DNA from: Nocardiopsis sp. MG754419
GTDB taxonomy: Bacteria > Actinomycetota > Actinomycetes > Streptosporangiales > Streptosporangiaceae
NCBI RefSeq assembly: GCF_018207095.1
Contig: NZ_QOCZ01000068.1
Coordinates: 1 to 49,445, forward strand
Length of the DNA stretch: 49,445 nt
Direction: 5' to 3'
Every line of letters starts with the position of its first letter. Within the stretch, counting starts at the first letter, position 1. Positions 29,554 to 40,934 of the stretch are shown here, one piece after another. Under the pieces are notes generated by a model that worked only from the letters and a program-made list of their open reading frames with translations, was not told the DNA's origin and searched no databases. Position numbers and translations under genes: made by a program.

Positions 29554-30939
29554 ATGTCCAGAACAGACGAACCCGTTGGTGAGAGCGCCCGGTCGCGGGT
29601 CGCCGATTGGCGTCGCCACTTCGCGCTGTTGTGGAGCGGCCTGGCCCTGTCCGGCCTGGGCACCATGACGTTCGGGCTGGCCCTCCCCCTCCTGGCGCTG
29701 GCGTACACCGGTTCCGCCGCCCTGGCCGGGTGGATCGCCGCGGCCGGAATGGTGCCTCGGACCCTGCTGCACATCCCGGTCGGGTGGGTGGTGGATCGTC
29801 ACGAACCCAAGCACGTGATGGTCGTGGGGCTCATCGGGCGTCTCCTGTGCCTGGCCCTGTTCGTCGCACCCGTACTGCTGTGGGACGCCCCGGTGGTGAT
29901 CCTGGCGCTGGCCTCCGCGCTGCACGGGGTCTGCGGCACCCTGCACTCCACCGCCGGCGCCGCCGCCGTCCCTCTCCTGGTCCCGACGGAGGAACTGGCC
30001 GGGGCCGCCGCCAAGAACCAGGCACGCAACGACGCCACACAGATGGCCGGTCGCCCCCTGGGCGGCGCGCTGTACGGTCTGGCGCACGGCGTGCCCGCCC
30101 TCTTCGACGCCCTGATGTGCCTGCTGTCCCTGGGGGCCGCCCTGCTCCTGGCCCCCATCCGCGAGCCCGGCTCGTTGCCCCGGCGGGAACCCCTGGGGCT
30201 CGCACTCGCGGCGGGCTTTCGCCTGCTGCGCGGTGACCGCTTCCTGCTGCTCTCGCTCCTGGTGTGCGCGGTCACCAACGCCCTGTTCCAGGTGGTGTGG
30301 TTGGTCATCATGCTCATGGCCACCGCTGAGGGCGTCTCTCCGTTCGCCCTGGGGCTGGTCCTGGCCGCCACCGGGGCGGGCGGACTGGTCGGCGCGATGG
30401 CCGCTCCGTACCTGGTCCGTCGCTCACCCCCCGCCCGCATGATCCTGCTGTGCACGTGGGCGTGGCTGGCCCTGACCCTGGCGCTGCCGGTCGCCGACCG
30501 GGTCGGCCCCGACTGGACGACGGTGATCCTGACGCTGGTCTGGGGCGGGATCGGGTTCGTCGGCGCGCACATGAACGTCACCGTGGTGACCTACCACACC
30601 ACGTACGTCCCACCGGAGCTCCTGGGACGCCTCACCGGCACGACCCGCTTCGTCCTCTGCGCCGCCCTGCCCCTGGGCCTGCTCTCGGGGGGCCAGGCAC
30701 TGGAGAGCCTGGGCGTGCGCACCACCCTCTTCCTGGTGGTGGGCGTGACCGGTGCGGTCGCGCTGGTCGTCACACTGGTTCCTCTGACGCCCCGGTCCCA
30801 CCGGCGTGTCCACGGCGCCCGAACACCTCCGCCAGCCCGCGCAACCCCTCCACCAGGGCACGATGCGCCGAATCCGCACCGCCACCGGGATCCGGCCGTA
30901 CCTGGACGTGCCCGAGGGTCCGATCCACCGCCTCCCTGA
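29554..30939 (+). CDS. Major facilitator superfamily exporter-like protein
   Basis: 461 residues from ATG 29554. About 12 membrane helices; the cytoplasmic loop 2-3 motif reads HIPVGWVVDRHEPKHVM. The layout resembles macrolide-efflux-type MFS proteins of actinomycetes (helix block FALLWSGLALSGLGTMTFG at the start). Transmembrane sequence ends near residue 410. The last 50 residues are Pro/His/Arg-rich and read through 170 bp of the oppositely oriented coiled-coil gene, suggesting that the original stop codon was lost. It borders the RiPP/STAND genes and could serve as exporter, but that is speculative. Confidence 0.87.
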   Translation: MSRTDEPVGESARSRVADWRRHFALLWSGLALSGLGTMTFGLALPLLALAYTGSAALAGWIAAAGMVPRTLLHIPVGWVVDRHEPKHVMVVGLIGRLLCLALFVAPVLLWDAPVVILALASALHGVCGTLHSTAGAAAVPLLVPTEELAGAAAKNQARNDATQMAGRPLGGALYGLAHGVPALFDALMCLLSLGAALLLAPIREPGSLPRREPLGLALAAGFRLLRGDRFLLLSLLVCAVTNALFQVVWLVIMLMATAEGVSPFALGLVLAATGAGGLVGAMAAPYLVRRSPPARMILLCTWAWLALTLALPVADRVGPDWTTVILTLVWGGIGFVGAHMNVTVVTYHTTYVPPELLGRLTGTTRFVLCAALPLGLLSGGQALESLGVRTTLFLVVGVTGAVALVVTLVPLTPRSHRRVHGARTPPPARATPPPGHDAPNPHRHRDPAVPGRARGSDPPPP

Positions 30940-31339
30940 GACGGTCGACCGCCGTCTGGTCGTGCGCCGGGAGGAGATCGCGCACCCGCTCCACGGCGAT
31001 CACGGCCTCGTACATGTGACCGCGGCACTCGCGCACCTCCTCGGCCAGATCGTTGCCGCCCTCCCCCGGCGGGCCGAGCCGACGCAGCTCCCCGATCTGC
31101 CGCATCCCCTGGTCGAGTCGGTGGACCCGCAGACGCACGTCCTCCAGACGCCGCCGGACCTCCTTTGCGCGGGCGAGCTCCCGCTCGTGGGCCCGGCGTT
31201 CACGTTCCACCTTGAGGGTGTGCTCGGCGCGCCAACGTTCCACCGTCTCGGCACGCCACGCGGACAGGGCGGTGGCCCCCAGGGTGCTGAGCGCCGTGAC
31301 GACACCGGTGATGAGCCCCACCAGAACGGTCGTGTCCAA
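30770..31339 (-). CDS. Membrane-anchored coiled-coil protein of unknown function
   Basis: 189 residues. One N-terminal membrane helix (residues 4-26, VLVGLITGVVTALSTLGATA). A long charged helix follows (WRAEHTLKVERERRAHEREL, ARAKEVRRRLEDVRLRVHRL), likely a coiled coil. The C-terminus is helical (TAVDRLREAVDRTLGHV) with a flexible end. It starts 3 bp after the stop of the STAND ATPase gene, so the two form an operon, possibly with the precursor peptide gene. Its 3' end overlaps the MFS gene. No family is recognised. Confidence 0.75.
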   Translation of the reverse strand: MDTTVLVGLITGVVTALSTLGATALSAWRAETVERWRAEHTLKVERERRAHERELARAKEVRRRLEDVRLRVHRLDQGMRQIGELRRLGPPGEGGNDLAEEVRECRGHMYEAVIAVERVRDLLPAHDQTAVDRLREAVDRTLGHVQVRPDPGGGADSAHRALVEGLRGLAEVFGRRGHAGGTGASEEPV

Positions 31340-31342
31340 TCC

Positions 31343-33031
31343 TCACCCTTTCCCTCGGTCCTCGACGGCACCGTCGCGGATACGGCCTCGGGTGCGCCGC
31401 GCCTCGGTGACCCCGCCACCGCCCACCAACGCGCCCTCCAGCTCGTCCAGGGCCGCCCCACCCTGCCCGACCAGCCAGAGCACCTGACCGATCCCGACCC
31501 GCAGGCTGGGGTCGCCGTGCACCCTCCCGGCGATCGAGGCGAGCAGCGCCAGGGCGGTGGAGCGTTCCGCGCACAGAAGCCGGGTGCGCGCCTCGGCGAC
31601 GAGCAGCCGAAGGACGGCCGCCTCGGCGCCGACGGCCCGCCGAGACCGCGCCGCCTCGGCGTAGTGTTCGGCCGCGGTCCGGTGCTCGCCCCGTTCGAAG
31701 GCCAGGTCCGCCATCAGCGTGGTGAACAGGGCGTGTGCTCCCGGCCCCGGGGGAGGTCGGGACCGCAGCGCCTGCGCGGCGTGTTCGGCGGCCAGCCCGG
31801 CCTCGCCGCGCGTGCGCACCCCGTTGGCCACGGCCAGCCGGTCCTGGTCGCTCCAGGAGCGCAGGCCCCGGGCGTGCGGGGACAGTGCCAGCCCCAGGAG
31901 CGGACGGGCGAGCCGAGGATGGCGCAGTCTCCAGGTGTGCCCCTCGACATGGGTCGTGACCAGGGAGCGGTCCTCCAGCGCGTGGATCACGCCGAGGGTG
32001 AGGGAGCTCTCCGGATCGTCGCGGACGGGGCCGACCGCGTCCGTGGCGGCGGAGACGACGAGTCGGCGCAGCCAGGCCTGGGGAACGTCGGGCGGCACCA
32101 GGTGTTCCGCGGCGACCTCCTCCAGGAGACCGGCCAGGCGTTCGGTGAGGGCGCGGTCGAGTTCGACGTCGTCGTCGGGGACCAGGGTGGGGGCGCCCTC
32201 GACCGCCTCCTCCCACAGGGTGAGGCCCACCAACTGCAGCAGCGCGGGCTCCACGGCGTCGGTCCGACGGACCTCCCGCCCGTCGGTGGCACGGACGGAG
32301 CGGGCCTCCTCCACCAGACGCGCGGGTTCGGCGGCGCCGACCCGCGATCCGACCCGGGCCAGACAGCCCGCCACGACGGACCGGGCGGTGTCGGGCGGGA
32401 ACGGGCCCAGTTCCATCTCGGTGTGTTCGGCCTCGCTCTTGTCCACCAGGCGCCGGAGCTCGTCGAGGTGACCGGTGCGCACGACCACCAACAGACGCAG
32501 GTCCTCACAGGCCTCCACGGCGCCGAGGAGCTCCTCCAGGAAGTCCTTGCGCCACTGTTCGGGCACGGACGATCGGCGCAGGAGGAGCTCGGCCGAGTCC
32601 AGGACGGCGAACACCGGGCGAGACCGACCGTAGCGATCGGTTCCGCCGCGGGCCCGCAGGAAGTCGACCACGGACGTGCCGGGGCCGTGGGTGGGGAACT
32701 CCTCGGGGCTCCACACCGCGAGCAGCGCCCGTGTGTAGGGGTTCTGGCCGGGCAGCACGGCCGAGGGGAAGGCGGGGTCGAAGCACAGGTCCCCGGTGGC
32801 CAGGACCGTGTGGCCCTGATCGGCGAGGGCGGGGGCGGCGCCGGCCCGCACCAGTGAGGTCTTGCCGACGCCGTTGTCACCGTGCAGCACCGTGAGCCGG
32901 TGACGCGACCAGGCCCGGACCAGGGCGGCGGTCTCCTCGTCGCGGCCGAGGAACAGGGGGCGGTCCCGGGCCAGGTAGGGGCGCAACCCGATGAAGGGAC
33001 CGTGTGCGCGCCCGAGGACGGCTCGTGTCAT
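31343..33031 (-). CDS. STAND-type P-loop ATPase with helical repeat C-terminus
   Basis: 562 residues from ATG 33031 (GGGAG upstream). FIGLRPYLARDRPLFLGRDEET is split across residues 13-34 and is typical of actinomycete nSTAND proteins. Walker A GDNGVGKTS lies at 51-59 and a Walker B-like strand PVFAVLDSAELLL near 138-150. LLVVVRTGHLDEL is the sensor region. The C-terminal third is Ala/Leu/Arg-rich TPR-like helical hairpins (LMADLAFERGEHRTAAEHYAEAA). STAND ATPases are nucleotide-driven switches that gather partners on ligand sensing. It follows the precursor peptide gene after 250 bp and precedes the coiled-coil gene by 3 bp. Confidence 0.82.
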   Translation of the reverse strand: MTRAVLGRAHGPFIGLRPYLARDRPLFLGRDEETAALVRAWSRHRLTVLHGDNGVGKTSLVRAGAAPALADQGHTVLATGDLCFDPAFPSAVLPGQNPYTRALLAVWSPEEFPTHGPGTSVVDFLRARGGTDRYGRSRPVFAVLDSAELLLRRSSVPEQWRKDFLEELLGAVEACEDLRLLVVVRTGHLDELRRLVDKSEAEHTEMELGPFPPDTARSVVAGCLARVGSRVGAAEPARLVEEARSVRATDGREVRRTDAVEPALLQLVGLTLWEEAVEGAPTLVPDDDVELDRALTERLAGLLEEVAAEHLVPPDVPQAWLRRLVVSAATDAVGPVRDDPESSLTLGVIHALEDRSLVTTHVEGHTWRLRHPRLARPLLGLALSPHARGLRSWSDQDRLAVANGVRTRGEAGLAAEHAAQALRSRPPPGPGAHALFTTLMADLAFERGEHRTAAEHYAEAARSRRAVGAEAAVLRLLVAEARTRLLCAERSTALALLASIAGRVHGDPSLRVGIGQVLWLVGQGGAALDELEGALVGGGGVTEARRTRGRIRDGAVEDRGKG

Positions 33032-33174
33032 GAAACAGCTCCCGGCCGGCGAGAACAGGGACGGTTCTGGCGCGAAACAGCGCTGTCCATGGTGCCACGA
33101 ACCGGGTCGGCTTTCGAGGGCCGGCGACATTCCTGTGGCCTTTTCACCGCATCCGGCCACGACCGTCGGCGCGA

Positions 33175-33186
33175 TTCTCTAGAGAA
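33175..33186. promoter_or_regulatory. 12-bp perfect palindrome upstream of the STAND ATPase gene
   Basis: TTCTCTAGAGAA is self-complementary, in the 250-bp gap between the precursor and STAND genes. It is a possible operator; no partner site is seen. Confidence 0.35.
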
Positions 33187-33238
33187 CCCTCCCGCGAGAA
33201 CGCGCCGTCATTCCACGTGCCAGGGTAACGGGAAACGA

Positions 33239-33261
33239 GGGCACGGAGAACCTCCGTGCCC
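33239..33261 (-). terminator. Hairpin directly after the precursor peptide gene (terminator/attenuator)
   Basis: Perfect 10-bp stem GGGCACGGAG / CTCCGTGCCC with a 3-nt loop, 20 nt past the precursor stop codon and ahead of the STAND ATPase gene. Such a hairpin would favour high precursor transcript over downstream genes. Confidence 0.75.
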
Positions 33262-33281
33262 GTGACCGGGGACCCGTCACC

Positions 33282-33452
33282 TCATTCGGGGTCGTTGACG
33301 AAACCGGCGACCACTTCCGCCCCCGCCGCCCGGGGGTCGAGCACCGAACGCAGGGCCTCCACGATCACCGAATCCCCGATCCCGTCGAGGTCGCGCAGGG
33401 ACAGTTCCCCGACGTCGACCAGGATGGACCCGCCGAGCTCGTGTTCCGCCAT
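33282..33452 (-). CDS. FxsA-like RiPP precursor peptide, C-terminus FVNDPE
   Basis: 56 residues from ATG 33452, preceded by AAGGGAGG. The leader (residues 5-40) reads ELGGSILVDVGELSLRDLDG then IGDSVIVEALRSVLDP. This is the LVDV..LSL.DL..L.DSV...ALR.VL pattern of FxSxx-COOH precursors. The core is the C-terminal segment AGAEVVAGFVNDPE. Classical members end in F-x-S-x-x; this one ends F-V-N-D-P-E, so the aromatic-x-Asn triplet FVN is the likely cyclophane site (inference). The enzyme genes are on the same strand but about 3 kb upstream, with the TPR gene in between. A strong hairpin follows the stop codon. Confidence 0.8.
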   Translation of the reverse strand: MAEHELGGSILVDVGELSLRDLDGIGDSVIVEALRSVLDPRAAGAEVVAGFVNDPE

Positions 33453-33711
33453 GTGCCTCCCTTCGTGTCCGCGCCTTTCGACGGCCGGGCGCGAAAGGAC
33501 GGCGAGCACCACCCTTTCACGCGCGCATTCCCATCGATCCTCGTAGGGAGTTCCTACCACGCACCTGTCGCCGGCTAACATCTTCGCCTACCCTGAGTTT
33601 CCGACCTTCATTCCCGCGCACCATCCACCGACACAACAGAACACCAGGGCCTTTTCACGCAGCGATAAACAAAGCACCTGGTGGGGACTATGTGAAAACG
33701 GAGGACACCGA
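33453..33711. promoter_or_regulatory. Divergent promoter region between precursor peptide and TPR genes
   Basis: 259 bp, less GC-rich than the surroundings. It holds a GTAGG/CCTAC repeat (33543-33557). GACTAT (33686-33691) is a possible -10 for the rightward gene, whose GTG 33712 has GGAGG in front. Exact promoters cannot be fixed. Confidence 0.45.
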
Positions 33712-36267
33712 GTGACCACTTCCCAGGGGAATCCTCCCGGTCAGGGCAGAAACCGATTCCCGGAGGTGTGGGGCAGGGTCCCACCGCGCCACAAGAACTT
33801 CACCGGTCGCACCGACCAGCTCAACGAACTCCGCGCGGGGCTGCTGAACCAGGTCACCGCGGTCGTCCCCACGTCCGAGCCGATCGTGCCGCGGACCCTG
33901 CACGGGTACGGCGGGGTCGGCAAGACGCTCATGGCCGTGGAATACGCGCACCGTTTCCGCGACGAGTACGACCTGGTGTGGTGGGTCATGGCGGACCAGC
34001 CCGGCCTGGTCCGCTCGTCACTGGCCCACCTGGCCCCGCACCTGGACCTGCCCGGGCCTGCCGTCACGGGCGTGGAGGAGGCCGCCAACGGGGTCCTGGA
34101 GGCGTTGCGCAAGGGCGAGCCCTACCTCAGGTGGCTGCTCGTCTTCGACAACGCCGACGAACCCGAGGAACTCAACGAGGTCATCCCGCAGGGGCCCGGG
34201 CACGTCCTCATCACCACCCGCAACCACCGCTGGGGCGGGGTGGCCGAGACCGTTCCGGTGAACGTCTTCGCCGAGCACGAGAGCGTGGAGTTCCTCAAGA
34301 AGCGTATCCCCCGGGGCATCGACACGCAGGAGGCAGTGGAGCTGGCCGAGGCCCTCGGCCACCTGCCGCTGGCGCTGGAGCAGGCGGGCGCCCTGCAGTC
34401 CGAGACGGGCATGTCGGTCCAGGAGTACCTGACCCTGCTGACGGAGCGGACCGGACCACTGCTGCGCGAGGGCAAACCGCCCGAGTACCCCCAGCCCATG
34501 ACCGCCGCCTGGCAGCTCTCGGTGGCCAAGCTCCAGGAGAACCTGCCCGAGGCGATGGAGCTCCTGCGGTGCTGTGCCTTCTTCGGTCCCGAGCCGATCC
34601 CCCGCGACGTGTTCTTCCCCGTGGAGGACGGCGTGGTGCGCCCCGAGATGGCACGGCTGATGGCCGACCCCATCCGGCTGAGCAAGGCCATCGGCCAGCT
34701 GGGTCGGTACGCGCTGGTACGTCTGGACAACACCAGCCGCACCATACAGGTGCACCGGCTGATCCAGGCTCTGGTGCGCGAGGAACTGGACGAACAGACC
34801 CAGGAGTCGATCCGCGTGGAGGTGTGGTCGTTGCTCAGCGCGGCGGCCCCGGACAGCTTCACCGACACCGCCTCGCACGCCCGCTACCTGGAGCTGCTCT
34901 CTCACCTGCGCCCGGCGAGGGTGGCCGAGTCCACGATCCCCGACGTACGGGAGTTCGGGCTCGACATGCTCAACTTCCTGTACACCTCGGGCGACTACGA
35001 GACCGCGAGCCTGCACGCACTGGGGTTCATCGAACGGTGGAGCGCCGACTCCGGCGAGGAGGACCCCTACCTGCTGCGCGCGCAGGCCAAGTACGCCAAC
35101 CGACTCCGCGACCTGGGTCGGTTCACCGAGGCCCAGGACATCAACCGCACGATCCTGCCCCGGATGACGGGGATCCTCGGCGCCACCCACCCGGACACCC
35201 TGTCGGTGCTGTCGGGCCGCGGCGCCGACTACCGGGCCCGCGGCGACTTCTGGAAGGCCCGCGAGCACGACGAGGAGGTCCTGCGTCAGTACGAGGACGC
35301 CTTCGGACCCAACGACCCCGCGACCCTGCGCGCCCTCAACAACCTCGCGCTGGACCACGCGCTGACCAGCGACTTCGTCGCCGCGCAGATCAAGCACGAA
35401 CGTGCCTACATGTTGTTCAAGCGGATCGGACCGGCCGGCGGCTCCCCCGTGCTGTTGGCGTACTGGAACGGCCTGGCCCAGGTGGTGCGTCTGGCCGGCG
35501 ACTACACGGAGGCGTGCGACCTGGGCGAGGACGCCCTCGCCTACGGCCGCGAACAGTTGGGGGTGGACGATCCCCGGACCCTGCGCACCCAGGTCGACCT
35601 GGCCATCGCCCGCCGCCTGTCCGGGGAGGTCGACGAGGCGCTCGAACTGGGGCAGGACGCGCACTCCCGCTACCTGCGCCTGTACGGCATCCACCACCCC
35701 AGCACCCTGGCGGCGGCGATGTGCCTGGCCAACCTGTGGCGCATGACCGGTGAGTTGGACGGCGCGCTGGAGCTGGCCGAGGACACCGACGTGCGGTACG
35801 CCCGCGCCTACGGTCACGACCACCCCTACAAGCACGGGTGCACCAGCAACGTCGCGCTGTTGTACCGCTTGGCGGGGGATCCGGAACGGGCACGGGCGAT
35901 GAACGAGGGGGCCCTGACCGCCCTGGAGGCCCGTCTGGGCCGCAACCACCACTACACGCTGGCCGCCGCCACCAACCTGGCCGGTGACCTGTCCGCGCTG
36001 GGCGACGCCGACAACGCCGTCCGGCTGGGCCAGGGATCGCTGCGCCGTTACCACGAACTGCTGGGACCGGACCATCCGAGCAGCCTGGGCTGCGCCTCCA
36101 ACCTGGTGCTGGACCTGCGGACCGAGAACAAGATCCTGGAGGCCAAACAGCTCGCCGATCCGACGTACGACTCCTACGTGCGCACGTTGGGACGGGAGCA
36201 CCCCTTCACCACGGCCTGTGAGGAGAACCGTCGTCTGGTGGCCGACTTCGACCCGCCCCTGTTGTGA
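33712..36267 (+). CDS. NB-ARC/TPR STAND protein of the FxSxx-COOH system type
   Basis: 851 residues from GTG 33712. The N-terminus has the family-typical FPEVWGRVPPRHKNFTGR. The NTPase core follows: Walker A HGYGGVGKT (residues 64-72), Walker B WLLVFDNAD (about 140-148), sensor VLITTRN (about 165) and LGHLPLALEQAG (GLPL motif). A winged-helix region (RTIQVHRLIQALVREEL) comes next, then roughly ten tetratricopeptide repeats (LGATHPDTL, FGPNDPATLRALNNLA, LGRNHHYTLAAATNLA). These repeats follow the 42-residue kinesin-light-chain spacing. Such proteins sit next to FxsA/FxsB and probably act as sensor or switch. It is divergent from the precursor gene. Confidence 0.93.
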   Translation: MTTSQGNPPGQGRNRFPEVWGRVPPRHKNFTGRTDQLNELRAGLLNQVTAVVPTSEPIVPRTLHGYGGVGKTLMAVEYAHRFRDEYDLVWWVMADQPGLVRSSLAHLAPHLDLPGPAVTGVEEAANGVLEALRKGEPYLRWLLVFDNADEPEELNEVIPQGPGHVLITTRNHRWGGVAETVPVNVFAEHESVEFLKKRIPRGIDTQEAVELAEALGHLPLALEQAGALQSETGMSVQEYLTLLTERTGPLLREGKPPEYPQPMTAAWQLSVAKLQENLPEAMELLRCCAFFGPEPIPRDVFFPVEDGVVRPEMARLMADPIRLSKAIGQLGRYALVRLDNTSRTIQVHRLIQALVREELDEQTQESIRVEVWSLLSAAAPDSFTDTASHARYLELLSHLRPARVAESTIPDVREFGLDMLNFLYTSGDYETASLHALGFIERWSADSGEEDPYLLRAQAKYANRLRDLGRFTEAQDINRTILPRMTGILGATHPDTLSVLSGRGADYRARGDFWKAREHDEEVLRQYEDAFGPNDPATLRALNNLALDHALTSDFVAAQIKHERAYMLFKRIGPAGGSPVLLAYWNGLAQVVRLAGDYTEACDLGEDALAYGREQLGVDDPRTLRTQVDLAIARRLSGEVDEALELGQDAHSRYLRLYGIHHPSTLAAAMCLANLWRMTGELDGALELAEDTDVRYARAYGHDHPYKHGCTSNVALLYRLAGDPERARAMNEGALTALEARLGRNHHYTLAAATNLAGDLSALGDADNAVRLGQGSLRRYHELLGPDHPSSLGCASNLVLDLRTENKILEAKQLADPTYDSYVRTLGREHPFTTACEENRRLVADFDPPLL

Positions 36268-36276
36268 GGTCGCCTC

Positions 36277-36307
36277 CCGCTCCGGCCCCTTCCGAGCGCC
36301 GGAGCGG
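36277..36307 (+). terminator. Terminator of the TPR gene
   Basis: 9-bp perfect stem CCGCTCCGG / CCGGAGCGG with a 13-nt loop, 10 nt past the stop. It could also serve the convergent HExxH gene on the other strand. Confidence 0.7.
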
Positions 36308-36402
36308 TCGGGCCCACCGATCGCTCGTCCCCGCGCCCACTCCGGGGCGTGAGCGGGGCACGGTGCGTCGCGCACGACGTCTCGTCCGCGGGTGATGGTC
36401 TC

Positions 36403-37716
36403 TCACCAGGGAGCGCCGTTGCGAGCGCGCCACCGCGCGAGGTGGCGACGGGCCGCGTCTCGAGCCGCCCGTTCGGCCTCGTCGGGCACGGGTTCCTCGC
36501 ACCAGTCGCGCAGGGTGCGGTCGGTCAGGGCGAGGAACCGACGGCCCTCGGTGGTGAGCCGTCCGGAGTCGGCCAGGGCGCGGGCGGCGTCGACGGTGGA
36601 CCGGCGCCAGTGCGCGAACTCCACGTGGGCGCGGCGCGCCTCCTCCCCCGCGGTGACGTGTCGGTGTCGACGCCAGAACCCGGCCACACCCAGGTGGGCG
36701 TACACGCCCTGGAGGAGGCCGGAGGCCGGTCGGGGGTCGGGGCGCCAGGGCGCGTAGTAGCGACTGCCGTCCTCGGACCGGGTGAGCGCGACCAGATCGA
36801 GCAGGGCCGTGAGCTTGGCGTGCTGCACCTCGTGCGCGAACGTGAGCGCGAACGGGACCGCGCCTTCGGGACGGGACAGCCCCAGGTTCCCGAAGGCGTG
36901 TCGGGTGGTGGCGCTGGTGTGGACCCGCCCGCCCGGCGCGGTGAGGGGGGTGAGCGTCACGACGAGCGCGTCGGTCTCCGCCGCGAGGGTGCCGTGGTGA
37001 TCCACCAGGAGCTCCCAGGCGCCCTGGAGCGTGTGCCGCCACCAGCGCAGTTCGTCCACGCCGAGCCGGTGGGCGACCAGGTCGGTCCCGGGCATGCGGT
37101 CGGGGTCCTGGTCGTCCAGGAACAGTTCGACGCGTCCGCCACGGTGTTCGGCGACCAGCCGACGGAGGGCGTGCCATCCGGGGGCGTCCTCGTGCGGGTC
37201 CTCGGGGACCTCCACTTCGGGGCCTCCCCTCACCCGCACGGTGGCCCGGCCTCCACCGACCTCCACCAGTGCCGACGCCCCCTCCCCGACCAGGGCGCGC
37301 CCCAGGGACGGCAACGGCGCGGTGGGTCCGTCCAGGGGGATCTCGACACGGGCGTCCACACCGGCGCGCAGCGCGGCCGCGGCCGCGAGGGCGCCGAGCG
37401 TACCGACCCGGGGCGGCTCGGGACGGTGCCCGGCCAGGGCCAACGCGGTCCGGCGCGCCCACACTCCGACGGCGGGGGTGCGGAGCGCGCCCCCGACCGG
37501 ACCCGGCGCGTGCTCCTGGGCCCGGGCCACCAACGCGAAGGCGTCGTGGGCGCGGTCGGCCTCGGGGTGACCGACCTCGCGTGCGACGTCCACCACGCGA
37601 CGCAACAGGAGCAGGTGCTTGCCGTACTGGGCGGCGCGCAGGTGCGCTGCGGCGGCGTGGCCGCCACCGCCCCGGGCCAGGGCGTCGAACAGTGGATCGG
37701 GGACCGGCCCGGGCAT
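36403..37716 (-). CDS. HExxH-motif protein, aKG-HExxH-type peptide beta-hydroxylase family
   Basis: 437 residues from ATG 37716. The N-terminal region is helical (HLRAAQYGKHLLLLRRVVDV), then mixed. The metal motif AHEVQHAKL puts His295, Glu296 and His299 in place. WRRHRHVTAGEEARRAHVEFAHWR follows, split here as GFWRRHRH and HVEFAHWRRS. This family, found next to or fused with FxsB-type radical SAM enzymes, includes members shown to be 2-oxoglutarate-dependent peptide beta-hydroxylases rather than proteases. The start codon directly abuts the FxsB stop (TAG-ATG), so the two are co-translated. The likely substrate is the FVNDPE peptide (inference). Confidence 0.87.
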   Translation of the reverse strand: MPGPVPDPLFDALARGGGGHAAAAHLRAAQYGKHLLLLRRVVDVAREVGHPEADRAHDAFALVARAQEHAPGPVGGALRTPAVGVWARRTALALAGHRPEPPRVGTLGALAAAAALRAGVDARVEIPLDGPTAPLPSLGRALVGEGASALVEVGGGRATVRVRGGPEVEVPEDPHEDAPGWHALRRLVAEHRGGRVELFLDDQDPDRMPGTDLVAHRLGVDELRWWRHTLQGAWELLVDHHGTLAAETDALVVTLTPLTAPGGRVHTSATTRHAFGNLGLSRPEGAVPFALTFAHEVQHAKLTALLDLVALTRSEDGSRYYAPWRPDPRPASGLLQGVYAHLGVAGFWRRHRHVTAGEEARRAHVEFAHWRRSTVDAARALADSGRLTTEGRRFLALTDRTLRDWCEEPVPDEAERAARDAARRHLARWRARNGAPW

Positions 37717-38934
37717 CTAACGCCCCTTCCTGATCCGGGCCACGTCGGCGGCCACGGTCCGGCGGATGTGGGTGATGAGGTGGTAGAGGTCGGCGCAGTA
37801 GACGGAGGGGTTGAGGAAGCCCGCGCCGGAGCGGTACCGGTGCGGGTAGAGTCCGCCGCCGCACACCCCGGCCAGCGGGCAGGTCGCGCAGGTGGGGCTC
37901 AGGGCGCGGGCGCCGATCTGGCGGGCGGCGACCGAGGGCAGGTAGAGGGCCTCGTCCAGGGCGTGGGTGAAGGTGTGGAGGGGGGTGCGGGCCGCCCCGG
38001 GGAAGGCCGACTTGAGGCTGTCGACCTGTTCGATGCTCCCGTCGGTCTCCACGACCACCAGCGCGGCCGGCGACAGTCCGATGCTCTCGGTGCGGGAGGG
38101 GCCGCCCAGGACGAGGCGGATGATCTCGTTGAACATGCGGATGGTGGTCTCGCGTTCGGCGGCGCCGTACCAGCGGTCGAACACCGCCGCCAGCCACGTT
38201 CCGTAGCGGGGTTCGGTGGGCGACCAGCCGGGGGGCGGTTCGTCCCAGTTGCCGTGCGGGAGGAGGAAGTCGACGCCGGGCGGGTGGTAGCCGATCAGGT
38301 GCTCGAAGGTGGCGACCGGGTCCGACTCCAGGTCGACGGTGGCGAGCAACCCCGAGAGCAGGTGAGCGTGGCGCTCGTTGAGACGCTCGATGCCGGCCTG
38401 CACCTCGGCGTGGGTGCCCCGTCCGTTGGCGCGTGTGCGGTGACGGTCGTGGTCCTGCCGTGCGCCGTCGATGCTGACACCGACTCGGATGTCGAACTCC
38501 TCGAACAGGTCGAGGTAGTTCCGGTCGATGAGCACGCCGTTGGTCTGCATGCGCAGGGTCGCGCGCACGTCGGGTTCACAGGCCTTGCGCACCGACTCGG
38601 CGACGTGGCGCAGGTGGTCGGGGCCCACGAGGAGGGGCTCTCCGCCGTGGAGCACGATGTCCACCCGGTCACGGCCGTGCGTGCGCGCGTGCTCGGCGAT
38701 CCTCTCGGCGACGCGGTCGACGGTCGCCCTGGCCATGCGCCGGGGTTGGGAGCGCCAGCCCTGGTCGGCCATCTCGTACATGTAGCAGTAGTCGCAGGCC
38801 AGGTTGCAGCGACTGTGGATCTTGAGGATGAACTCGCGGAAGGGGGTGGGGCGCCAGCCCTGGCCGAGGAGACCGTCGACGTCCATGTCGTCGGGCCATT
38901 CGGCAGGTCTGTCGGGGTCGGTACTCCTTGCCAC
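37717..38934 (-). CDS. fxsB: FxsB-type radical SAM/SPASM cyclophane-forming enzyme
   Basis: 405 residues from GTG 38934, with AGGAGG 8 nt upstream. The radical SAM motif CNLACDYC has Cys at 43, 47 and 50. Then come VDIVLHGGEPLLVGPD, RATLRMQTNGVLID and VGVSIDGARQDHDRHR. The C-terminal SPASM-like region has TCATCPLAGVCGGGLYPHRY and VYCADLYHLI, with Cys for auxiliary clusters. FxsB enzymes join an aromatic ring to the beta-carbon of the residue two positions on, making a three-residue cyclophane. Complete and unfused. Followed without a gap by the HExxH gene. Its promoter must lie in the 730-bp region upstream. Confidence 0.93.
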   Translation of the reverse strand: MARSTDPDRPAEWPDDMDVDGLLGQGWRPTPFREFILKIHSRCNLACDYCYMYEMADQGWRSQPRRMARATVDRVAERIAEHARTHGRDRVDIVLHGGEPLLVGPDHLRHVAESVRKACEPDVRATLRMQTNGVLIDRNYLDLFEEFDIRVGVSIDGARQDHDRHRTRANGRGTHAEVQAGIERLNERHAHLLSGLLATVDLESDPVATFEHLIGYHPPGVDFLLPHGNWDEPPPGWSPTEPRYGTWLAAVFDRWYGAAERETTIRMFNEIIRLVLGGPSRTESIGLSPAALVVVETDGSIEQVDSLKSAFPGAARTPLHTFTHALDEALYLPSVAARQIGARALSPTCATCPLAGVCGGGLYPHRYRSGAGFLNPSVYCADLYHLITHIRRTVAADVARIRKGR

Positions 38935-39665: not shown

Positions 39666-40934
39666 ATGACTGAGCGCCTGCTTCCTGCCCTGTCCGCCTG
39701 CCTCGACTGGGCGCACACCGTCGATCCATCGCCCCCGCTGGGCGTCGAGGCGCTCGTGCTCCTGCTCAGCGCACACCAGGACGCGGGGGCCACCGATCCC
39801 GGAGACTGGTTCGTGGCCGATGTCAGGGAGGTCGCCGCGACGGTCCGCCGGCGGGAGGAGTTGCCTCCACTGTTCCGGGAGAGCTGGCTGACCTGGTGCG
39901 ACCACCTGGTCGACGCGGGGCTGTTGGTGTCGACGGAGAGCCCACGGCGGTTGCGGACGGCGATCGCGGAGATCGACCTGACACCGACCGACACCGCCGA
40001 GCCCGACCCCGAGCCGCCTCCGGAAGTCGCGGCGCCCCTCCTGGAGCGCCTGGGGTACGGGGCGACCACGGACGACGGGCCGGCACGCCCGTACCTCCCG
40101 GCGTCCGCCACCGAACTCGACGCCCACGCCGTGTCCTGCCCCACCTTGTATCTGGCGGCGCGGCTGTCGGCCTGGACCGATCCATGGGTGCTGTTGCGCT
40201 CGGGGACCGACGATGACGCCCTCGGCGAGGACGACACCGCCGAGGCCGCCCGAGAGCTGGACGTCTCCCCCGAAGAGGTCGCGTTCCTATTCTCCGTCGC
40301 CCGCTCCGCGGGGCTGCTCCGCACCACGTACCTTCAGGCCCTACCAGGGCCGGCGGCCCAGGCCTGGGCCCGGGAGACACCGGGGGCGATCGCCGACGCC
40401 TGGGCCGACGCCCTGAACACCATGACCGACCTGCCCGGACCCACACCCTTCCTGGTCCTCGGCGAGCTCTTCCTCACCGGTCGCGAGCTCTCCGTCGAGG
40501 AGCTGGCCCACGTGTGCGTCGAACCGGACCCGGCCGCGCATCTGCCCCGGGTCCTGCGCGTCCTGACCGAGACCGGAGCGATCGAGACGACCACCGAGGG
40601 CCGGCACCGGATCACCGGTCTGGGCGACCACTGCGTCGCCCGCCGCCTGCGCGCCTGTGGGGTCGAGGTGCCCCGGACCCCACCCGTGCTCGGACTGGAC
40701 GCCGCCGCATGCCTGGACCTGGTGGAGCGGGCCCGCCCGGTCGACACGGCGCGTCTACTGGACCGGTGGCTGGCGGGGCGGGACCCCGCCGACGCCGCCC
40801 GCGGTCTGTTGGAGGCCGGTCTGGCCCCCGAGGACCCCGCGGCCTTCGTCGACGCGGTCGTCGCCCGCCCTCGGGGCCGCACCGTCCTGGACCTGGTCGG
40901 GGAGGACCTGTGCACCGCCCAGCCCCTCCGCTGA
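39666..40934 (+). CDS. Hypothetical protein with LTxLG-type helical module
   Basis: 422 residues from ATG 39666. Predominantly helical, Ala/Leu-rich, with two winged-helix-like segments (residues 60-100 and 195-225). Near residue 312 it has RITGLGDHCVARRLRACGVEVP, which aligns with RYG-containing blocks in the two related proteins at 42289 and 45853. The C-terminus has short helical repeats (DPADAARGLLEAGLAPEDPAA). No signal, membrane helix or catalytic motif is visible. I do not recognise a function. Confidence 0.75.
   Translation: MTERLLPALSACLDWAHTVDPSPPLGVEALVLLLSAHQDAGATDPGDWFVADVREVAATVRRREELPPLFRESWLTWCDHLVDAGLLVSTESPRRLRTAIAEIDLTPTDTAEPDPEPPPEVAAPLLERLGYGATTDDGPARPYLPASATELDAHAVSCPTLYLAARLSAWTDPWVLLRSGTDDDALGEDDTAEAARELDVSPEEVAFLFSVARSAGLLRTTYLQALPGPAAQAWARETPGAIADAWADALNTMTDLPGPTPFLVLGELFLTGRELSVEELAHVCVEPDPAAHLPRVLRVLTETGAIETTTEGRHRITGLGDHCVARRLRACGVEVPRTPPVLGLDAAACLDLVERARPVDTARLLDRWLAGRDPADAARGLLEAGLAPEDPAAFVDAVVARPRGRTVLDLVGEDLCTAQPLR

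Follow-up and report, generated by a model that had tools for sequence, protein, structure and literature searches.

In this study, we examined a gene island of Nocardiopsis sp. MG754419 that lies in a window of 49,445 nt (the whole stretch of DNA analysed, positions 1 to 49,445 of contig NZ_QOCZ01000068.1), and found that an nSTAND1 ATPase, which stands here beside the genes of an FxSxx-COOH peptide system, is a regular partner of the core of that system across the order, a partnership that is new here. A first-pass annotation, made from the sequence, had placed six genes at 30770..38934, encoding an FxsA-like precursor, a STAND ATPase, a membrane 'coiled-coil' protein, an NB-ARC/TPR protein, the radical SAM enzyme FxsB and an HExxH protein. 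All seven frames (these six and that of an adjoining transporter of the major facilitator superfamily, MFS) were re-translated to fix the coordinates; the six genes proved real, with coordinates nearly as given, and the larger frames are coding as judged by codon-position GC. The gene set thus stands but its extent does not, as the MFS gene, most of which lies outside that range, also belongs to the island; this gene and the order-wide link of the STAND ATPase had both been overlooked.

Read leftward, the minus strand carries FxsB and HExxH and, past the divergent TPR gene, FxsA, the nSTAND1 ATPase and a protein with one transmembrane segment (one-TM protein; 'coiled-coil' was a by-eye reading of its sequence). 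The last three genes are co-directional and operon-like, the TTG start of the one-TM gene lying beside the STAND stop, and the MFS gene converges on the one-TM gene and overlaps its 3′ end. As had been described, FxsB and HExxH are joined stop-to-start, the stop of the former abutting the ATG of the latter. The earlier family assignments were borne out as well: FxsA (40.8 bits, cut-off 28), FxsB (469.6 bits, cut-off 370), the HExxH protein (166.6 bits, cut-off 40) and the NB-ARC/TPR protein (969.6 bits, cut-off 300; PF00931 and TPR by Pfam) pass the curated NCBIfam cut-offs of the models given in Table 1, and the STAND protein, which has no NCBIfam match at E<=0.1, reaches 85.1 bits against PF20703 (cut-off 27.1). 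Judged by these families, the core of the island is the known FxSxx-COOH/triceptide system. The closest named relatives of the STAND protein are in Nocardiopsis sp. JB363 (78% identity) and N. alkaliphila (71%).

Table 1. Features of the island, with positions in the window
Feature	Position	Strand	Basis
MFS transporter, candidate peptide exporter	29554..30939	+	PF07690
One-TM protein, 189 aa, TTG start, candidate effector in the place of SIR2	30770..31339	-	hydropathy
nSTAND1 ATPase with C-terminal helical repeats, 562 aa	31343..33031	-	PF20703
GC-rich hairpin between FxsA and STAND	33230..33267	-	-21.5 kcal/mol, no U-run
FxsA precursor peptide, 56 aa, core ...AGFVNDPE	33282..33452	-	TIGR04268
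Non-coding block 5′ of fxsA, possible promoter	33549..33591	-	conservation among relatives
NB-ARC/TPR protein (FxSxx system TPR protein)	33712..36267	+	NF040586; PF00931 and TPR
alphaKG-HExxH peptide beta-hydroxylase	36403..37716	-	TIGR04267; PDB 22nu, ChlH 8s5f
FxsB radical SAM/SPASM cyclophane synthase	37717..38934	-	TIGR04269; PDB 9gm3 ChlB

The conserved synteny that had been anticipated across actinomycete genomes was found, and it reaches well beyond the genus. A STAND profile was built from 19 homologs picked from 57 by similarity, ignoring context. Of 249 genomes of the order, 132 have a match to it (E<=1e-40) and 169 a match to FxsB (E<=1e-60); the two occur together in 127 genomes, STAND alone in five, FxsB alone in 42 and neither in 75 (Fisher p ~1e-26, descent ignored). 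Outside Nocardiopsis, 80 regions of at most 20 kb, with 87 STAND open reading frames (ORFs), were hand-picked down the STAND score list with their context unseen (40 high and 40 lower; some genomes occur twice or more, and G248, G155, G111 and G068 are among those skipped). TPR is present in 79 of these regions, FxsB in 66, HExxH in 56, SIR2 in 45, FxsA in 44, MFS in 43 and the one-TM gene in five; one region (L217) has none of these partners, and in at least two (L182, L214) FxsB lies outside the region, further along the same contig. Of the 86 STAND ORFs with TPR within 5 kb, 78 share the arrangement of the window, the TPR gene being upstream and on the opposite strand. Because TPR-family matches are plentiful (9–29 per Nocardiopsis genome) and FxsB is sparse (1–5 per positive genome), linkage to FxsB carries more weight. 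In many genera carrying the set, STAND identity to the window is only ~30–38%. In another family of the class, all four regions fetched (from four of ten matched genomes) have FxsB, HExxH, TPR and STAND in the order seen here, two of them with SIR2; the precursor profile detected no FxsA in these four. Five regions (L171, L172, L179, L180 and L181) hold two mirrored islands back to back within 20 kb, each with STAND, SIR2, TPR, FxsB and HExxH, one FxsB of L172 being just a tblastn fragment.

Within the genus, 40 Nocardiopsis genomes were surveyed. FxsB is above the cut-off in 21, all of which have STAND; three have STAND only and 16 have neither. The 24 STAND loci (21 of 37 genomes plus G060–G062, window included) usually show the order MFS, one-TM, STAND, FxsA, TPR, HExxH, FxsB, with TPR present in 24, one-TM in 23, FxsA, FxsB and MFS in 21 each and HExxH in 20. 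The HExxH gene is missing in G016 and truncated by a contig end in G027. Broken or split genes were scored as present (several frameshifts in G013, STAND in pieces on two contigs in G022, TPR in two frames in G009), as were the loci of G027 and G034, each of which lies on two contigs.

At three of the 24 loci (G007, G015 and G035, the first two identical in TPR and STAND), FxsA, FxsB, HExxH and MFS are jointly gone while the TPR, STAND and one-TM genes remain open. Genome-wide, these strains have no FxsB and no FxsA at the cut-off, and they lack the MFS ortholog (66–68% identity in G019 and G003), only paralogs of ~33% identity or less remaining; G007 and G015 carry a distant HExxH homolog (52 bits, cut-off 40) elsewhere, with a further radical SAM gene ~4.4 kb away. 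In protein trees, the peptide-less loci are nested among peptide-bearing ones, and one or two changes are needed. The ratio of nonsynonymous to synonymous substitution rates (dN/dS) between G035 and G015 is 0.29 for TPR, 0.36 for STAND and 0.34 for one-TM, compared with 0.14–0.19, 0.28–0.32 and 0.20–0.42 in three peptide-bearing pairs and 0.22–0.27, 0.31–0.36 and 0.33–0.43 in two mixed pairs. As these values are well below 1, the three genes are not only open but also constrained in the peptide-less loci. The pattern of co-loss suggests that the peptide, its maturases and the MFS protein form one unit and that the NTPases and the one-TM protein form another. The ATPase and the one-TM gene thus do occur without fxsB, the observation that was to count against a joint system; the precursor shows no such independence and is lost along with fxsB.

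A 43-base non-coding block 5′ of fxsA bears on these losses. It keeps 33–40 of 43 bases in seven of nine other fxsA-bearing loci tested, the remaining two having 30/43 with a gap (L108) and 24/43 (L116), and it may possibly be the promoter of fxsA. In the fxsA-less loci it scores 36/43 in G007 and G015 and 27/43 in G035, against a background of 24; being kept in the former and eroded in the latter, it suggests deletion of fxsA. The hairpin between FxsA and STAND, which had been noted before, does exist. It is weak evidence because it has no U-run and because, when it was traced through 21 loci, other hairpins or sequence stood in its place; it was not kept as evidence.

The precursor is FxsA-like by its family, as had been proposed, but it lacks the literal FxSxx-COOH end: its C-terminus is FVNDPE, i.e. 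the Phe-x-Asn form. From this end, the predicted ring is F-V-N, an aromatic-x-x core motif that is present in the precursor, the cyclophane itself being a prediction. Of 26 precursors of Nocardiopsis relatives, two were repeat views of the same genomes; among the 25 distinct ones (window included), 20 have F-x-N and five F-x-S, so that one core or the other is found in all. In nine close relatives the final nine residues are invariant, with seven of their nine codons differing silently, which points to purifying selection acting on the core. Loci L122 and L130 (G021 and G034) each have two extra FxsA copies, with core sequences that differ, and, beside FxsB, another TPR gene.

Both maturases resemble enzymes of solved structure. 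FxsB, which has the motif CNLACDYC, matches ChlB (PDB 9gm3) at E=2.8e-78, and the HExxH protein, whose motif is intact (HEVQH), matches PDB 22nu at E=4e-45 and ChlH (8s5f) weakly, at E=0.0032. We take IPR026335 to be the FxsB family. As far as the sections consulted of the cited reports go, the bond made by MscB (IPR026335) runs from Phe C4 to Ser Cβ and that made by XncB and OscB from Phe C4 to Asn Cβ (PMC11002830), and HExxH proteins fused to radical SAM domains act as alpha-ketoglutarate-dependent β-hydroxylases on a cyclophane peptide (PMC12636437). Taken together with the F-x-N or F-x-S cores, these matches uphold the earlier prediction of a hydroxylated cyclophane, and the predicted cyclophane and β-hydroxylation are well founded in that they rest on known families. 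One locus of G016 (L123) has FxsB and an FxsA with the core FENDK and no HExxH gene, a natural case in which the predicted cyclophane would be expected without hydroxylation. Many genomes have higher-scoring FxsB domains in frames of 700–850 aa, probably FxsB-HExxH fusions, mostly off these islands.

The STAND protein is a predicted molecular switch. Its P-loop residues G54, G56, K57 and S59 are invariant among 19 homologs, and its model (pLDDT 88) consists of an NTPase part and C-terminal helical repeats, with ORC/Cdc6, STAND-TPR (6mfv), Avs4, NLRP7, NOD2, AVAST5 and general AAA+ ATPases among its top Foldseek matches. In alignments, identity to most relatives peaks in the NTPase part and drops in the middle and the repeats, as expected of a predicted switch with a diverging sensor. 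No DNA-binding domain was found above the Pfam cut-off in either NTPase.

The gene beside STAND differs between lineages. The one-TM protein (hydropathy maximum 1.86 at residues 5–23) has no family above cut-off in Pfam or NCBIfam. In 45 of the 80 regions of other genera, STAND has a SIR2 ORF (52 in all) no more than 200 bp away, and each of the 52 STAND ORFs with such a neighbour has it upstream on its own strand. The Pfam SIR2_2 cut-off is passed by three separate examples, which also match ThsA in PADLOC, and one neighbour compared with the PDB matches KomC and ThsA. TNYD is present in 48 of the 52 SIR2 ORFs and HG in 51; we take these to be the catalytic motifs. The ORF lacking both (L178) is a long NB-ARC-SIR2 frame. 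None of the five regions with the one-TM gene has SIR2, and no SIR2 gene was found in the fetched Nocardiopsis loci or among the window ORFs scanned with Pfam. A crude ORF filter for an unrecognised small membrane gene after STAND picked one out at none of the 52 STAND ORFs from SIR2 regions and at two of the 35 elsewhere; as it missed the known cases L167 and L177, it carries no weight as to absence. The pattern looks like an effector swap, though one that tracks lineage. The first-pass annotation had the 'coiled-coil' protein bring the peptide to the membrane; we found no evidence of this, and with SIR2 in 45 and the one-TM gene in five of the 80 regions, an effector role fits better. The peptide core may co-vary with the predicted effector type: among 47 precursors from 44 of the 80 regions, found with a profile built from F-x-N-rich precursors, F-x-N occurs in 0 of 32 in SIR2 regions and in 6 of 15 in the others, and the exact FxSxx end in 24 of 32 versus 3 of 15 (Fisher p=0.0006, descent ignored). 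Long frames near the island at L178:5690-8380, L185:9094-11661 and L188:1360-3996 have a SIR2-like part after an NTPase part, which in the two scanned is NB-ARC/DUF7779.

The MFS protein is a candidate exporter of the mature peptide. Its gene is absent from the same three Nocardiopsis loci that lack FxsA, FxsB and HExxH, and in 42 of the 80 regions it is within 2 kb of STAND, always downstream and on either strand. Homologs of the window MFS protein at E<=1e-20 number 25 in ten genomes, so chance adjacency to STAND should be rare.

We put the probability at roughly 0.4 that the island is the Nocardiopsis version of a two-module sender/responder system widespread among actinobacteria. In the sender module, FxsA would be cross-linked by FxsB, with a predicted ring from Phe to Asn Cβ in F-V-N, the HExxH enzyme would hydroxylate the peptide, Asn or Asp close to the ring being the likeliest site, and the MFS protein would export the product. 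The responder module would comprise two switches, the NB-ARC/TPR protein and the nSTAND1/repeat ATPase, that stay off until the peptide, or a trigger dependent on it, is sensed; they would then assemble and fire the effector encoded in the operon, a predicted SIR2 NADase in many relatives and, in this lineage, the one-TM protein, whose predicted site of action is the membrane. SIR2-STAND defence of the Avs5 type ends in growth arrest or death, and here, as in NLR-like defences, the outcome would be the same for the responding cell. It is possible, although we hold it to be doubtful, that the exported, cross-linked and hydroxylated ribosomally synthesized and post-translationally modified peptide (RiPP) is a dedicated ligand of the paired STAND-type receptors, which would fire a swappable effector in like neighbour cells.

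Several points weigh against such a system. FxsB occurs without STAND, at the threshold used, in 42 of 169 genomes; MFS is missing from 37 of the 80 regions, and SIR2 and a recognisable coiled-coil gene are both missing from 30. G009 lacks the coiled-coil gene and G016 the HExxH gene. The co-loss amounts to one or two events in a small sample, the TPR dN/dS of 0.29 against 0.14–0.19 hints at relaxed selection, and the linkage and core-type statistics ignore shared descent. The Foldseek TM-scores are low (0.20–0.36, query-normalised), and the best MFS match being STAND-adjacent in nine of ten genomes (the window's own included) is no independent test, as these genomes were already known to show MFS or were the window's own.

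The principal rival to the sender/responder reading, which we consider rather unlikely, is an intracellular two-step defence, in which the NTPases sense an invader, the peptide is a toxin, signal or amplifier, and SIR2 or the one-TM protein is a further effector. Most facts are common to both explanations; the matches of the STAND model to Avs4 and AVAST5, among others, and the ThsA-like SIR2 neighbours fit it, and Kaur et al. (2020; PMC7159879, in its section on these systems) proposed such a role for FxSxx peptide-processing systems. By itself, however, it leaves unexplained the MFS gene and the loss of this gene along with the peptide genes.

The view of the first-pass annotation, an ordinary RiPP pathway with built-in control in which the NTPases sense a trigger and govern how much peptide is made or how active it is, with the coiled-coil protein carrying it to the membrane, appears improbable. 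The tight linkage and the co-directional, operon-like arrangement of FxsA, STAND and coiled-coil genes would suit it, but both NTPases and the coiled-coil protein persist in the three loci without peptide, maturases or MFS, which speaks against a main role in controlling production; neither NTPase has a DNA-binding domain above the Pfam cut-off, and SIR2 genes are unexpected for a production regulator. Still far less probable is a chance or inherited adjacency of STAND, coiled-coil and MFS genes without joint function. Common descent within Nocardiopsis alone could preserve the order, and the abundance of TPR matches makes the TPR linkage alone weak. A family-less ORF of 422 aa at 39666-40934 (+) is probably such a bystander: it is present in 35 of the 40 Nocardiopsis genomes whether or not they have the island, with second copies in several, and in the two island-free genomes whose surroundings were fetched it has no island gene beside it; it was therefore rejected as a part of the island. 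The survey of 80 regions largely refutes mere adjacency, given that the set recurs in many genera despite low STAND identity and in another family of the class, and that the rare FxsB is still found in 66 regions.

FxSxx peptides are common in actinomycetes. That they are regularly found with a transporter, a STAND ATPase of the immune type and, in many genera, a ThsA-like SIR2 gene suggests a role as an alarm, a kin signal or a self-killing trigger; instead of an antibiotic cluster of the usual sort, the island may be an alarm or a means of self-destruction tied to a peptide. The co-loss divides its genes into sender and responder sets, and if the peptide-gated reading is true, strains in which only the receivers are left would act as listeners.

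Scanning the window for tRNA genes and Rfam families gave no matches, and PADLOC on the window proteins gave just generic radical SAM (pVip, for FxsB) and weak P-loop matches. Kaur et al. (2020) describe, in the part of PMC7159879 on FxSxx peptide processing, systems that combine a radical SAM enzyme with a zincin-like protein and an AP-ATPase/TPR protein; in actinobacteria, some of them stand on their own. The island resembles these systems in its small precursor, FxsB radical SAM/SPASM enzyme, HExxH protein and NB-ARC (AP-ATPase)/TPR protein, but its core is F-x-N, and its nSTAND1, one-TM or SIR2 and MFS partners are absent from section 24 of that paper, in the text of which the words 'Sir2', 'MFS' and 'nSTAND' do not occur. 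In the VMAP ternary system, according to the same source, MoxR and vWA genes adjoin the peptide genes; the island is not of this kind, Pfam having found neither at E<=0.001 in 16 frames of 24581-46082. The order-wide link of FxSxx-type peptides with nSTAND1, SIR2/one-TM and MFS was not found in the text, figures and supplements aside, of the open-licence literature searched; the core is known, and the partnership is new as far as these texts go.

Compared with triceptides and ChlB/ChlH, as far as these are covered by the sections consulted of PMC11002830 and PMC12636437, the island shares the Phe-x-Asn/Ser core, the likeness of FxsB to ChlB and that of the HExxH protein to 22nu and weakly to ChlH; the known enzymes are fused, however, whereas here FxsB and HExxH are separate abutting genes. 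The NTPase belongs to the nSTAND1 clade of conflict systems, and nSTAND1 is at times found in EACC1 systems, in which a one-TM protein is the invariable component, according to the pertinent section of Kaur et al. (2021; PMC8195603); the one-TM protein of the island differs in having no Pfam family above cut-off, and the words 'FxSxx' and 'radical SAM' are absent from the text of that paper. The SIR2 neighbours of relatives match the NADases ThsA of Thoeris and KomC of Kongming and keep TNYD and HG; the window differs in lacking a SIR2 gene among the ORFs scanned. In Avs5, SIR2 and STAND are parts of one protein; Pfam found no SIR2 domain in the STAND protein of the window, which is thus not of this architecture. 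As in Avs5 and other Avs systems, which the Avs4 and AVAST5 fold matches also recall, many relatives pair a STAND NTPase with a SIR2-type effector, but nearly all of their loci encode SIR2 separately, and a RiPP module is attached. If the proposed reading is true, RiPP chemistry and NLR-like immunity would be joined in one system.

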